From Desulfarculaceae bacterium (lineage in GTDB: Bacteria; Desulfobacterota; Desulfarculia; Desulfarculales; Desulfarculaceae), in assembly GCA_020444545.1 (NCBI GenBank), contig JAHLKT010000007.1, forward strand, positions 77,001 through 141,000: DNA of 64,000 nucleotides. Direction: 5' to 3'. The position numbers and the translations under genes were made by a program. The notes under the pieces were generated by a model that was given only the letters and a program-made list of their open reading frames with translations, did not search any database and was not told the origin of the DNA. Positions 3,757 to 51,215 of this stretch are shown piece after piece; position 1 is the stretch's first letter, and every line of letters starts with the position of its first letter.

Positions 3757-6078
3757 ATGAGCCCCCGTGTGGATAACATCCTGGAGCTGGTGGGCGGCAC
3801 CCCCCTGGTGCGCATCAACCGGCTCAACCACAACCCCGGCGTGACCGTCTACGCCAAGCTGGAGTTCATGAACCCCGGCGGTTCGGTGAAGGACCGCCCG
3901 GCGCTCAACATGATCGAAGAGGCCGAGCGGCGCGGCGAGCTGACCAAGGACAAGGTCCTTCTGGAGGCCACCAGCGGCAACACCGGCATCGGCCTGGCCA
4001 TGGCCTGCGCGGTCAAGGGCTACAAGATGCTCTTCACCATGGCCGAGTCCGCCTCTTTGGAGCGGCGCAAGATTCTCAAGGCCTACGGCGCGGAGATACT
4101 GCTCACCCCGGCCCACATGTCCACCGACGGGGCCATCGAGGAGGCCTACCGCCTGGCCCGCGAGGAGCCGGAGCGCTACTTCCTGGTGGACCAGTTCAAC
4201 AACGACGACAACTGGCGGGCCCACGCCGCCGAAGGCTCCACGGCCGACGAGATCTACGCCGACACCGAGGGCAAGGTGGACCTGGTGGTTTCCACCCTGG
4301 GCACCTCGGGCACGGTGATGGGCCTCACCCGACGCTTTCATCAGATAGACCCCAAGGTCAAGGTGGTGGCGGTGGAGCCCTACCAGGGCCACAAGATTCA
4401 GGGCCTCAAGAACATGAAGGAGTCCTACGCCCCGGGCATCTTCGCCCCCGGCGAGGTGGACATCCTGGTCAACGTGGACGACGACAGCGCCTACGAGATG
4501 AGCCGCCGCCTGGCCCGCGAGGAAGGCATCTTCGTGGGCATGAGCGCGGGCGCGGCCATGAAAGTGGCCCTGGACCAGGCCGCCACCCTGCCCGACGGCT
4601 CGGTGGTGGTGGCCCTTTTGCCCGACGGCGGCGAGCGCTATTTGTCCACCCCCCTGTTCAGCAGCGAAAAGGTGCCCATCCCGCTGAGGTTCTACAACAC
4701 CCTCAGCCGCGAGGTGGAGGATCTGGTCCCCACCCAGCCCGGCCGGGTGGGCATCTACGCCTGCGGCCCCTCCCTGGACGGCCCGCCGGATTTGGGCCTG
4801 GGCCGCCGCATGATCTTCGCGGACCTGGTGCGCCGCTATCTGGAGTTTAGGGGCTTCGAGGTCAAGCTGGTGATAAACATCGCCGACGTGGACGACCGCA
4901 CCATCAACCAGTGCCTCAAGGAAGGGGCGGACTGGAAACAGTTCACCGCCAAGTGGGAGCGCGTGTTCTTCGAGGACATGGCCGCCCTGGGCATGCGGCC
5001 CGCCCTGGACTACCCCAAGGCCTCCGAGCACATTAGCGAGATGGTGGACACCGCCCGCGACCTGTTGGACAAGGGCCTGGCCTACGAGAAACTCAGAAGC
5101 ATCTACTTCAACATCAGCCGCTTCGAGAAATACGGCAAGCTTTCGGGGGTGGACATCGCGGCCACCCAGTGCGACAAGCACACGGACTACGACTATTACG
5201 AGAAGGACAACCCGCGCGACTTCACCATCTTCAAGCGGGCCTCCCTGGCCGATCTGAAGGCGGGCATCTACTGGCAGACCCCCTGGGGCAACGTGCGCCC
5301 GGGCTGGCATGTGGAGTGCGCCACCATGTCCTCCAAGCACCTGGGCCAGCCCTTTGACATCCACCTGGCCTCCACGGATTTGATCTTCCCCCACGGCGAG
5401 AACGAGATCGCCGTGGCCGAGGGCCTGACCGGCAAGCCCCTGGCCAACCTTTGGATGCACTCCGAGGTGGTCATGGTCGAGGGCAAGAAGGCCTCGCGGG
5501 TGGTGGGCAACGACGTGACCATCCGCGAGATCCTGGACCAGGGCTACAGTCCGGCCGCGGTGCGCTTCTGGCTTTTGGGCCAGCACTACCGCCGCCCGCT
5601 GACCTACGACCAGGAGCAGCTGGACCAGGCGGCCAAGTCGGTGGAGCGTATCAACGACTTCGTGGCGCGGCTGAGCTTCATCAGCCCCTGCTCCCACGCC
5701 CCGGACCTGGACCAGTATCTCTACGAGCTCAAGAGCGGCATCCAGGAGGCCATGGACAATGACCTCAACGTGCCCAAGGCCATGGGACATCTCTTCACCT
5801 TCATCCGGCGCATTAACCGCCTGATGAACAGTCAGCAGATGGACGCCTCCCAGGTGGAGAAGGTGCTGGGCTTTTTGGAGCAGGCCAACCAGGTGCTGGG
5901 CATCATCGACCTGGAGCGCCCGGCCCGCGACCCCGAGATCGACGAGCTGCTCACCCGCCGCCAGGCCGCCCGCGCCTCGGGCGACTTCGCCCTGGCCGAC
6001 CAGCTCCGCGAAGAACTGGCCCAGCGCGGCATACAGGTTATCGATACGCCCAGCGGCTCCCGCTGGTGCCGCATGTAG
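3757..6078 (+). CDS. Cysteine synthase fused to a CysRS-like domain with degenerate ATP motifs
   Basis: This is a 773-residue fusion. Residues 1-305 are an O-acetylserine sulfhydrylase-type PLP enzyme with lysine K45 in GGSVKDRP, the substrate loop TSGNTG (72-77) and the phosphate-binding GTSGT (182-186). Residues 306-773 align end to end with cysteinyl-tRNA synthetase, including the anticodon-binding C-terminus. The four zinc ligands expected from E. coli CysRS (C28, C209, H234, E238) are kept as C336, C521, H546 and E550. However, the HIGH motif reads DLGL (345-348) and KMSKS reads KASRV (578-582), while HHENE reads HGENE. The domain should therefore still bind cysteine but may not activate it with ATP. 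The ATG at 3757 has AGGA six bases upstream. Likely roles (inference) are a cysteine sensor on cysteine synthase or an unusual ligase. The N-terminal activity is secure; the C-terminal one is not. Confidence 0.92.
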   Translation: MSPRVDNILELVGGTPLVRINRLNHNPGVTVYAKLEFMNPGGSVKDRPALNMIEEAERRGELTKDKVLLEATSGNTGIGLAMACAVKGYKMLFTMAESASLERRKILKAYGAEILLTPAHMSTDGAIEEAYRLAREEPERYFLVDQFNNDDNWRAHAAEGSTADEIYADTEGKVDLVVSTLGTSGTVMGLTRRFHQIDPKVKVVAVEPYQGHKIQGLKNMKESYAPGIFAPGEVDILVNVDDDSAYEMSRRLAREEGIFVGMSAGAAMKVALDQAATLPDGSVVVALLPDGGERYLSTPLFSSEKVPIPLRFYNTLSREVEDLVPTQPGRVGIYACGPSLDGPPDLGLGRRMIFADLVRRYLEFRGFEVKLVINIADVDDRTINQCLKEGADWKQFTAKWERVFFEDMAALGMRPALDYPKASEHISEMVDTARDLLDKGLAYEKLRSIYFNISRFEKYGKLSGVDIAATQCDKHTDYDYYEKDNPRDFTIFKRASLADLKAGIYWQTPWGNVRPGWHVECATMSSKHLGQPFDIHLASTDLIFPHGENEIAVAEGLTGKPLANLWMHSEVVMVEGKKASRVVGNDVTIREILDQGYSPAAVRFWLLGQHYRRPLTYDQEQLDQAAKSVERINDFVARLSFISPCSHAPDLDQYLYELKSGIQEAMDNDLNVPKAMGHLFTFIRRINRLMNSQQMDASQVEKVLGFLEQANQVLGIIDLERPARDPEIDELLTRRQAARASGDFALADQLREELAQRGIQVIDTPSGSRWCRM

Positions 6079-49497: not shown

Positions 49498-49545
49498 TTG
49501 ACAATATCGGCGCGCCGCTGGTATACCGTATACAGTATCCAAAAG
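49498..49545 (+). promoter_or_regulatory. Promoter and possible operator of the trp leader
   Basis: TTGACA (49498-49503) is followed after 17 bases by GTATAC (49521-49526). The -10 region is part of GGTATACC followed by GTATAC, two overlapping palindromic hexamers one base apart, and then CAGTATCC. This symmetrical arrangement may be a repressor site overlapping the promoter. It is not the E. coli TrpR operator. Confidence 0.65.
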
Positions 49546-49553
49546 GAGTGCTG

Positions 49554-49634
49554 ATGAGCAAGCAAAATCCTAGCCGTGAAAAGCATCTCTGGTGGCGCTG
49601 GCAGCCGCCCGGCCGGGGTCCGTCCGCGCTCTGA
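49554..49634 (+). CDS. trpL: Tryptophan-rich leader peptide (TrpL-like)
   Basis: This is a 26-residue open frame with three Trp codons in a row of four (WWRW at residues 13-16, codons at 49590-49601). GGAG lies just before its ATG and the stop codon is at 49632. It directly precedes an attenuator terminator and the trpB2 gene. Leader peptides of this type make the ribosome stall when charged tRNA-Trp is scarce. The gene is too short for normal gene finding but its position, ribosome site and Trp run make the call strong. Confidence 0.85.
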   Translation: MSKQNPSREKHLWWRWQPPGRGPSAL

Positions 49635-49686
49635 AGCAACTCAGCTAGCAGCCGCGCCGCGGGCCCCAGGGCCCGCGGCTGTTTTT
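49591..49686 (+). promoter_or_regulatory. Transcription attenuator of trpB2
   Basis: The terminator stem GCCGCGGGCCC (49656-49666) and GGGCCCGCGGC (49669-49679) is followed by TGTTTTT. An alternative pairing, GGGGTCCGT (49615-49623) with GCGGGCCCC (49659-49667), uses two G-T pairs and occupies the 5' terminator arm, so it is an antiterminator. Upstream, GGTGGC over the Trp codons (49591-49596) can pair with GCCGCC (49604-49609). This is the 1:2, 2:3, 3:4 layout of classic trp attenuation: stalling at the Trp codons frees segment 2 to block the terminator. Confidence 0.8.
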
Positions 49687-49736
49687 AGGCCCTGTTTTCA
49701 GTTGAAACGATTCGTCAGGAGTACAAGGAGAGAGTC

Positions 49737-51101
49737 ATGGAGCAGGTAAAGGTCTTACTCGACGAGCAGGAGATGCCCAAGCGCTGGTACAACGTGCAGG
49801 CCGACCTGCCCACCCCGCTGGCCCCGCCCTTCCATCCGGCCACCATGGAGATCGCCACCCCGGAGCAGATGAACGTCATCTTCCCCATGGCCCTGTTGGA
49901 GCAGGAGATGAGCCCGGCGCCCTTCTTCGACATCCCCGAAGAGGTGATGCAGGTCTTGGCCCTGTGGCGGCCCACTCCCCTGATGCGCGCCCGCAACCTG
50001 GAAAAGGCCCTGGACACCCCGGCCAAGATCTATTTCAAGAACGAGTCGGTCTCCCCGGCGGGCTCCCACAAGCCCAACACCGCGGTGCCCCAGGCCTACT
50101 ACAACAAAAAAGAGGGCATCAAGCGCATCGCCACCGAGACCGGCGCCGGCCAGTGGGGCAGCGCCATGAGCCTGGCCTGCCAGATGTTCGGCCTGGACTG
50201 CCGGGTGTACATGGTTCGGGTCAGCTACAACCAGAAGCCCTACCGCAAGTCCATGATCAACACCTGGGGCGCCGAGATCTTCGCCAGCCCCAGCGACCAG
50301 ACCGAGTCGGGCCGCGCGGCCCTGGCCCAAAACCCGGATCACCCCGGCTCCCTGGGCCTGGCCATCTCCGAGGCGGTGGAAGACGCGGTGAGCCACGACG
50401 ACACCAACTACTCCCTGGGCTCGGTGCTCAACCACGTGTGCCTGCACCAGACGGTGATCGGCGAAGAGGCCATCAGGCAGATGAAAAAGATCGGCGAGAA
50501 GCCCGACGTGGTCATCGGCTGCATCGGCGGCGGCTCCAACTTCGCGGGCCTGGCCTTCCCCTACGTGCGCGAGAAGATCGGCGGCATGGACGTGCGCATC
50601 CTGGCGGTGGAGCCCGCCTCCTGCCCCACGGTGACCAAGGGCATCTATGCCTATGACTACGGCGACATGGCCCACCTGGCCCCCATCGTGATGATGCACA
50701 CCCTGGGCCACACCTTCGTGCCCCCGGGTATCCACGCCGGCGGCCTGCGCTATCACGGCATGAGCCCCCTGGTCAGCCGCCTGAAGGAAGACGAGCTCAT
50801 CGAGGCCATCGCGGTGCCTCAGCTGGAGTGCTTCGAGGCCGGGCTCATGTTCGCCCGCTCCGAGGGCATCATCCCGGCGCCCGAGTCCACCCACGCCATC
50901 CGGGCCGCGGTGATCGAGGCGCTCCAGGCCAAGGAAGAGGGCAAGGAAAAGACCATCCTGTTCAACCTCTCGGGCCACGGCCACTTCGACATGAGCGCCT
51001 ACGACGCCTTCCTGGCCGGCCAGCTGAGCAACTACGAGTATCCCCAGAAGATGGTGGACGAGGCCCTGAGTAAGCTGCCTCACATAACCCTGCCCGCCTA
51101 A
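49737..51101 (+). CDS. trpB: Tryptophan synthase beta chain, TrpB2 type
   Basis: This 454-residue PLP enzyme condenses indole with serine to make tryptophan. The PLP lysine is K112 in [11 protein letters not shown]. The Glu-containing loop ETGAGQWG, the phosphate loop [10 protein letters not shown] and the C-terminal [10 protein letters not shown] are intact. The longer N-terminus ([17 protein letters not shown]) and overall length mark it as TrpB2 rather than canonical TrpB1. TrpB2 is often found without trpA and may scavenge indole; no other trp gene is next to it. AAGGAG precedes the ATG. Expression is probably set by the leader-peptide attenuator just upstream. Confidence 0.95.
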
Positions 51102-51176: not shown

Positions 51177-51215
51177 GCCCGGCCCCGGTTCTCCCACCGG
51201 GGCCGGGCTTTTCTT
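51177..51215 (+). terminator. Rho-independent terminator after trpB2
   Basis: The stem GCCCGGCCCCGG (51177-51188) and CCGGGGCCGGGC (51197-51208) is perfect, with an eight-base loop, followed by TTTTCTT. Confidence 0.92.

Follow-up and report, generated by a model that had tools for sequence, protein, structure and literature searches.

A predicted trpL-like attenuator in front of a lone trpB2 gene in a Desulfarculaceae bacterium and related leaders across the Desulfobacterota

The window analysed here, to which all positions refer, is a 64-kb stretch of contig JAHLKT010000007.1 from a Desulfarculaceae bacterium (assembly GCA_020444545.1). On its + strand, positions 49737–51101 encode TrpB2, a TrpB-like PLP enzyme of 454 amino acids that matches the NCBIfam models NF009057 (736.6 bits; cut-off 366) and TIGR01415 (636.7 bits; cut-off 518.85); structures of relatives named tryptophan synthase beta chain 2 have been solved (4qys and 6hte). 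Its closest named relative among the best 80 of 528 matches comes from a Desulfarculaceae MAG and is 94% identical. The neighbouring genes encode a response regulator and a PAS-GGDEF protein, and no trp gene is found among the immediate neighbours, in agreement with the original prediction, which had described trpB2 as standing alone. The gene is probably a single-gene unit, since a terminator-like hairpin comes after it at 51177–51208 (+ strand).

The region upstream of trpB2 carries the parts of an attenuator, all on the + strand. A −35 element, TTGACA, lies at 49498–49503 and occupies the same place in the trpB2 promoters of relatives; it is followed, after an 18-nt spacer, by a probable −10 element, TATACC, at 49522–49527. 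A strict promoter scan returned no sigma-70 site on the + strand at the trpB2 leader. The ribosome-binding site AGGAG (49544–49548) precedes a leader ORF of 26 codons (49554–49634) that starts with ATG at 49554, encodes MSKQNPSREKHLWWRWQPPGRGPSAL and ends with TGA at 49632–49634. Codons 13, 14 and 16 (49590–49595 and 49599–49601) specify Trp in the motif WWRW, a clustering of Trp codons in a short frame that is typical of trpL-like attenuators. The 26-codon leader with WWRW, its ribosome site and its stop at 49632 had been claimed before, and each is present in the sequence and in the list of ORFs.

Between the leader and the structural gene, again as in trpL-like systems, lies an intrinsic terminator (49656–49687, + strand; −24.8 kcal/mol) that is conserved in the order. 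Its stem of ten G-C pairs (49656–49665 with 49670–49679) closes a CCAG loop and is followed by a T tract with the tail TGTTTTTA. An antiterminator can form from segment 2 (49615–49623), which lies within the leader ORF, downstream of the Trp codons and ahead of the stop codon, and segment 3 (49659–49667), which is common to the antiterminator and the terminator (both segments on the + strand). The two segments form nine pairs, two of which are G-U, and this pairing is predicted when the transcript is folded up to 49668, at which point segment 3 has been made and segment 4 has not. In these predicted structures the antiterminator excludes the terminator, and segment 2 comes before the end of the leader ORF. 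A perfect terminator and the alternative pairing were both part of the original prediction and are borne out.

The same prediction had completed the picture to a classic 1:2/2:3/3:4 system by pairing the Trp-codon region with 49604–49609. The hairpin does occur in the predicted fold (49591–49596 with 49604–49609; 49591–49609, + strand), but it stands together with the antiterminator in one fold and is therefore no alternative to it; as a competitor of the 2:3 pairing it was rejected. When the leader is folded only as far as segment 2, a different candidate for segment 1 is predicted at 49567–49576 (+ strand). This protector strand would pair with 49610–49619, through 49567–49571 with 49615–49619 and 49573–49576 with 49610–49613, and would thereby enclose the Trp-codon hairpin. 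When the region before the Trp codons was shuffled, 14% of the shuffles scored as high as the window leader and 1% as high as that of one relative, G006, with a mean z of 0.48 over 13 leaders. By this modelling the candidate protector is convincing only in G006, and a competing 1:2 stem in the window leader is uncertain.

The arrangement suggests how trpB2 would be controlled. A stalled ribosome covers about 12–14 nt downstream, so that a ribosome held on 49590–49601 would leave segment 2 free and one at 49632 would cover it, with read-through expected when charged tRNA-Trp is short. With ample tryptophan, the leader ribosome would pass WWRW and cover segment 2 as it moves towards the stop codon, leaving the 3:4 terminator to form. 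With tryptophan in short supply, the ribosome would stall on the Trp codons; the free segment 2 would pair with segment 3, the terminator would be blocked and trpB2 would be transcribed. The modelled probability of the terminator in the window leader follows this scheme, with 0.00 for a ribosome on the first Trp codons, 1.00 for a ribosome on the stop codon and 0.33 without a ribosome. With a stalled ribosome and a shuffled segment 2 it is 0.99 on average; shuffling segment 2 alone thus destroys the modelled switch. We infer from these features that the ribosome stalls on the leader and that trpB2 responds to tryptophan. A Trp attenuator in front of the lone trpB2 (49498–49737) is confirmed as an observation, and we are confident in the explanation as a whole, namely that a ribosome-mediated, trpL-like attenuator opens a single-gene trpB2 unit when charged tRNA-Trp is short.

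Conservation within the order was examined in 21 trpB2 loci, 20 of which have upstream DNA (one locus of the genus, G007, is cut by a contig end). Thirteen of the 20 usable upstream regions have a Trp-rich leader, including all seven intact loci of the genus. In the alignment of these 13 sequences, the terminator columns pair in 93.1% of cells, a value that 1 of 500 shuffles reached, and three pairs are changed on both sides. The antiterminator columns pair in 86.3% of cells (35 of 500 shuffles as high); here one pair has changes on both sides, from G-C to A-U in three sequences, and 33 of 500 shuffles of the order alignment reached the covariation score. Sliding the partners by 1 to 3 columns gave pairing of at most 56.1% for the antiterminator and 50.0% for the terminator. 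On the covariation check suggested earlier, judged from the aligned sequences, the antiterminator and terminator pairings are well kept in relatives, yet antiterminator covariation within the order is thin. Apart from the Trp codons and the stretch encoding segment 2, the leader peptides vary a great deal.

Outside the order, we turned to trpB2 loci elsewhere in the phylum. The 104 loci are the best-scoring matches listed and not a random sample; three were lost for want of a gene start (L151, L154 and L158), which leaves 101 regions, one of them with 29 nt of upstream sequence (L146). A leader, defined by at least three Trp in six codons, is present in 28 of these 101 regions from the best-scoring matches listed, and 15 have a terminator behind it. 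The corresponding counts were 1 and 0 for the reverse complements and on average 1.8 and 0.0 over five rounds of dinucleotide shuffling. We accept 23 of the 28 as credible. Nine sampled families other than that of the window are represented among them (codes f10, f12, f19, f29, f38, f53, f66, f68 and f70), and five with long or atypical ORFs were set aside as doubtful (L163, L169, L179, L209 and L243). Trp codons and the terminator/antiterminator pairing are thus retained in relatives, as the original prediction required. GTDB contigs supplied 75 further loci outside the order (the best 80 of 528 matches minus five of the order), and 7 of these show a leader frame in which at least three Trp fall within five codons. 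Six of the seven look credible, namely two from Spirochaetes (L037 and L039), L057, L069, one from Zixibacterium (L073) and one from Caldithrix (L075), and all six have terminator-like hairpins behind the Trp-rich leader.

A number of trpB2 leaders from other Desulfobacterota (L187, L214, L218, L224, L228, L183, L193, L204, L206, L230 and L237) have a design of their own: the peptides often contain WWWQ or WWWR, some end in CP, and two tandem hairpins follow, the second of the GCCATGGG type with a T tract. These leaders with tandem hairpins are possibly a describable RNA family. At two of the loci, tRNA genes lie close to trpB2 and its leader (L183, 392–476; L228, 13–97). The Trp leader of Rfam is RF00513 (PMC3766115, in the passage that names it), and the window leader is the same kind of element. 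A scan of the window returned no Rfam family at the gathering threshold, so that neither RF00513 nor a T-box was recorded, and RF00513 was absent from the matches at E values up to 10. The best match below threshold, BcKCsr2 (17.9 bits, E 0.076, gathering threshold 40), was not accepted as family membership. Across 19 loci scanned, the only Rfam leader family was a T-box (108.3 bits) at 4516–4844 of L041, where it precedes trpB2 in a Tepidanaerobacteraceae contig. The recurrence of the leaders suggests that Trp attenuation is common in the phylum, although no Trp-rich leader sampled had a match in Rfam.

A second layer of control, absent from the original prediction, is suggested at the promoter. 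A perfect 13-bp palindrome, GTATACCGTATAC, covers the −10 element at 49521–49533 and is predicted from its sequence and order-wide conservation to be a repressor operator, and the palindrome GTATACNGTATAC is common to trpB2, trpD and liv-type operons. A third near-copy, GTATACAGTATCC, follows at 49528–49540. The exact palindrome has this sole copy in the window's genome and 17 copies in 15 of the 21 genomes of the order, against none for a reversed-pattern control. Eight of the copies precede trpB2 (G000, G004, G005, G006, G008, G009, G010 and G016), five precede a trpD operon (G001, G012, G013, G016 and G017) and two precede liv-type transporter operons (G014 and G016); the remaining two, in G003 and G019, fall outside these assignments. 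With up to one mismatch the palindrome is found in 14 of 20 trpB2 upstream regions of the order, where the control motif had at best four mismatches. In the window's genome (G000), a one-mismatch copy lies before an apparent livHMGF-paaK-SBP-iorA operon (L279, 4868–12975, on G000:C3); its IorA alpha scores 612.6 bits, short of the cut-off of 650.9, and its PaaK-like ligase is also under the respective cut-off. A further one-mismatch copy is flanked by a second liv-type cluster and a regulator-like gene (L280).

The protein that would bind this site is not TrpR, which was ruled out by the lack of any PF01371 match in the window's genome; the control genomes of E. coli and B. subtilis gave a signal. 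A possible lead, from sequence, is an FCD-type GntR protein (G000:C2:579068, L253; matches to PF07729 and PF00392) that has GTATACGAGATAC upstream of its gene. Orthologues in eight other genomes (L249–L252 and L254–L257) have similar sites with two mismatches, or one in L256. Sites with two mismatches number 20 genome-wide and 28 for the control, per strand, and being no commoner than the control they carry weight only through position and conservation. In G001, what we take to be a TetR-like ORF lies beside the palindrome site. Together these observations point to a regulator, so far uncharacterised, that would act on aromatic amino-acid genes at the DNA level where TrpR is lacking, and we infer that a repressor, possibly the FCD-type GntR protein, would act at 49521–49533 as a second control at the level of the promoter.

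Such a repressor at GTATACNGTATAC might even exert most of the control over trpB2, and the attenuator would then be of minor importance or in decay. The position of the palindrome over the −10 element speaks for this, as do its presence in regions where no trpB2 leader was detected (G001, G012, G013 and G017, all among the 14 of 20) and the occurrence of the same site before trpD operons in five genomes and liv-type operons in two. However, three loci (G002, G003 and G011) have kept the leader and are without the palindrome, and outside the order none of the 101 trpB2 regions (best-scoring matches listed) has the palindrome within two mismatches, although leaders are present in 28 of them. The two layers are independent and may operate side by side, in the way that E. 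coli combines TrpR with attenuation. We regard a predominant repressor as unlikely, and prefer the attenuator as the device that would read charged tRNA-Trp, with the operator beside it.

A further question is whether leaders of this kind might arise by chance, so that the hairpin would be an ordinary intrinsic terminator of an upstream transcript next to a fortuitous Trp-rich frame and tryptophan would play no regulatory part. Compared with dinucleotide shuffles, the complete leader has an ordinary folding energy (z about −1.0), which is explained by the very high G+C content of the region, and G+C-rich DNA yields hairpins easily; whole-leader folding energy was accordingly dropped as evidence. 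The failure of the strict scan to find a sigma-70 site at the leader also fits an accidental frame. What lifts the leader above chance is conservation, recurrence in the phylum and the effect of shuffling segment 2 alone: leader, Trp codons and terminator recur before trpB2 across the order, 28 of the 101 phylum regions drawn from the best-scoring matches have a leader against 1.8 in shuffles, and the modelled switch is abolished when segment 2 is scrambled. We consider an accidental origin highly improbable.

The pairing and model tests were given 42 leaders, of which 40 were used, two (L171 and L222) being dropped because no terminator was found. Segment 2 fits the terminator arm of its own leader better than those of other leaders: none of 20000 permutations equalled the true match, whether the set comprised all 40 leaders, the 21 from the phylum or 18 representatives; for the 13 trpB2 leaders of the order alone the test is not significant, with 2177 of 20000 permutations as good. 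In the equilibrium model, ribosome stalling removes the terminator in 8 of 13 trpB2 leaders of the order, in none of six trpD leaders and in 6 of 21 phylum leaders. A measure taken on an earlier intermediate, in which the 5´ arm is sequestered while the 3´ arm has yet to be made, lies above the mean of the shuffles in 12 of 13, 6 of 6 and 9 of 21, respectively. The weak figures for the phylum result in part from the simple terminator finder, which in several phylum leaders chose the second of two tandem hairpins. An action of the leader peptide or the short terminated RNA in trans, with cis control of trpB2 secondary, is also very improbable: trans action is reported for the trp leader peptide peTrpL of Sinorhizobium (PMC7298713), but the divergence of the peptides outside the Trp codons and the segment 2 stretch fits a constraint on RNA better than one on peptide.

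The same genome carries trpD, trpC, a trpF-like ORF, trpB1 and trpA together as trpDCFBA. TrpB1 (G000:C4), surrounded by trpD, trpC and trpA, is 34% identical to TrpB2. Upstream of the cluster are a separate Trp leader, MFATCWRYWWWYEDRSGPPASVR, a terminator whose stem has 16 pairs, and a GTATACAATTTTT half-site. In a related genome (L131, on the reverse strand of G017:C111), tandem Trp-rich leaders are found before trpD, MYFTTSWRYWRWQATLGRPLPLEV with a terminator and then a PWWWRG frame. The original prediction had called TrpB2 a working, tryptophan-supplying enzyme. This is reasonable and incomplete, since a genome that has trpDCFBA with TrpB1 and its own Trp leader makes TrpB2 an additional supplier. 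In vivo TrpB2 most likely joins indole and serine, and its likeliest role is indole salvage or a boost to the last step under tryptophan starvation; the switch would add such capacity beside the separately controlled trpDCFBA. TrpB2 is present in 171 of 247 genomes of the phylum searched at E ≤ 1e-100, and no viral copies were found when looked for. Six of the matches (G066, G131, G035, G118, G089 and G028) contain one internal TAA, which may reflect an alignment running upstream of the start codon.

The cellular role of TrpB2 is disputed, with serine deaminase, indole scavenger and other functions proposed in passages of PMC1854888 and PMC2700814. A passage of the former defines the class trpB2_o as TrpB2 whose gene lies apart from the trp operon where trpB1 is present as well, and a passage of the latter calls stand-alone TrpB2 indole-scavenging. 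The window's TrpB2 belongs with trpB2_o as there defined, its gene lying outside the trp operon with an operon-borne trpB1 also present, and differs from that of Geobacter, where the same passage of PMC2700814 places the TrpB2 gene inside a predicted trp operon. In Bacteroides, according to PMC11535334, the TrpB2 homologue BT_RS23500 aided a trpA mutant of E. coli only under cross-feeding by the wild type, and the authors suggest there that it converts indole to tryptophan. The passages of PMC1854888 and PMC2700814 on trpB2_o and indole-scavenging TrpB2 make no mention of an attenuator. In Corynebacterium diphtheriae, candidate Trp attenuators are described before trpB1EDGC and trpB2A (a passage of PMC1262725). 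The likeness lies in a candidate Trp attenuator that precedes a gene of the name trpB2; there the gene forms an operon with trpA, whereas the window has a lone TIGR01415/NF009057 gene in another phylum. Within the open-access literature searched, including passages of PMC1262725, PMC1854888, PMC2700814, PMC3766115, PMC5343134, PMC11535334 and PMC1173090, no attenuator before a lone trpB2 is described; the mechanism is known, and a lone trpB2 as its target is apparently unreported there.

The mechanism itself is best known from trpL of E. coli, in which a short ORF with Trp codons, a shared segment 3, a ribosome that masks segment 2 and a repressor site at the promoter are combined. The window leader has the same clustered Trp codons in a short ORF, a segment 3 common to terminator and antiterminator, a stop codon that would let the ribosome mask segment 2 and, over the −10 element, a site of the repressor type. 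It differs in that it precedes a single trpB2 instead of trpEDCBA, in that segment 2 lies inside the leader ORF and the competing 1:2 stem is uncertain, and in that the promoter site is not one for TrpR, given the lack of a PF01371 match.

In conclusion, TrpB2 is probably a separately promoted, extra last-step enzyme under parallel control beside trpDCFBA, and probably salvages indole. A device that should read charged tRNA-Trp before a lone trpB2, in nine sampled families besides that of the window, is genomic evidence that the cell counts TrpB2 as part of its tryptophan supply, and an attenuator in this position hints at the purpose of a poorly understood enzyme family. More tentatively, the stand-alone TrpB2 of Desulfobacterota could be a dedicated tryptophan-starvation enzyme under several attenuator designs, with an FCD-GntR-type repressor at GTATACNGTATAC as an added tie in the window's family; this joint proposal is possible but speculative. 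If true, the tie would link TrpB2 to the uptake and breakdown of aromatic amino acids through the liv-type transporter, the PaaK-like ligase and the indolepyruvate oxidoreductase, and the cell would re-capture indole or halt the making of tryptophan according to its supply of aromatic amino acids.
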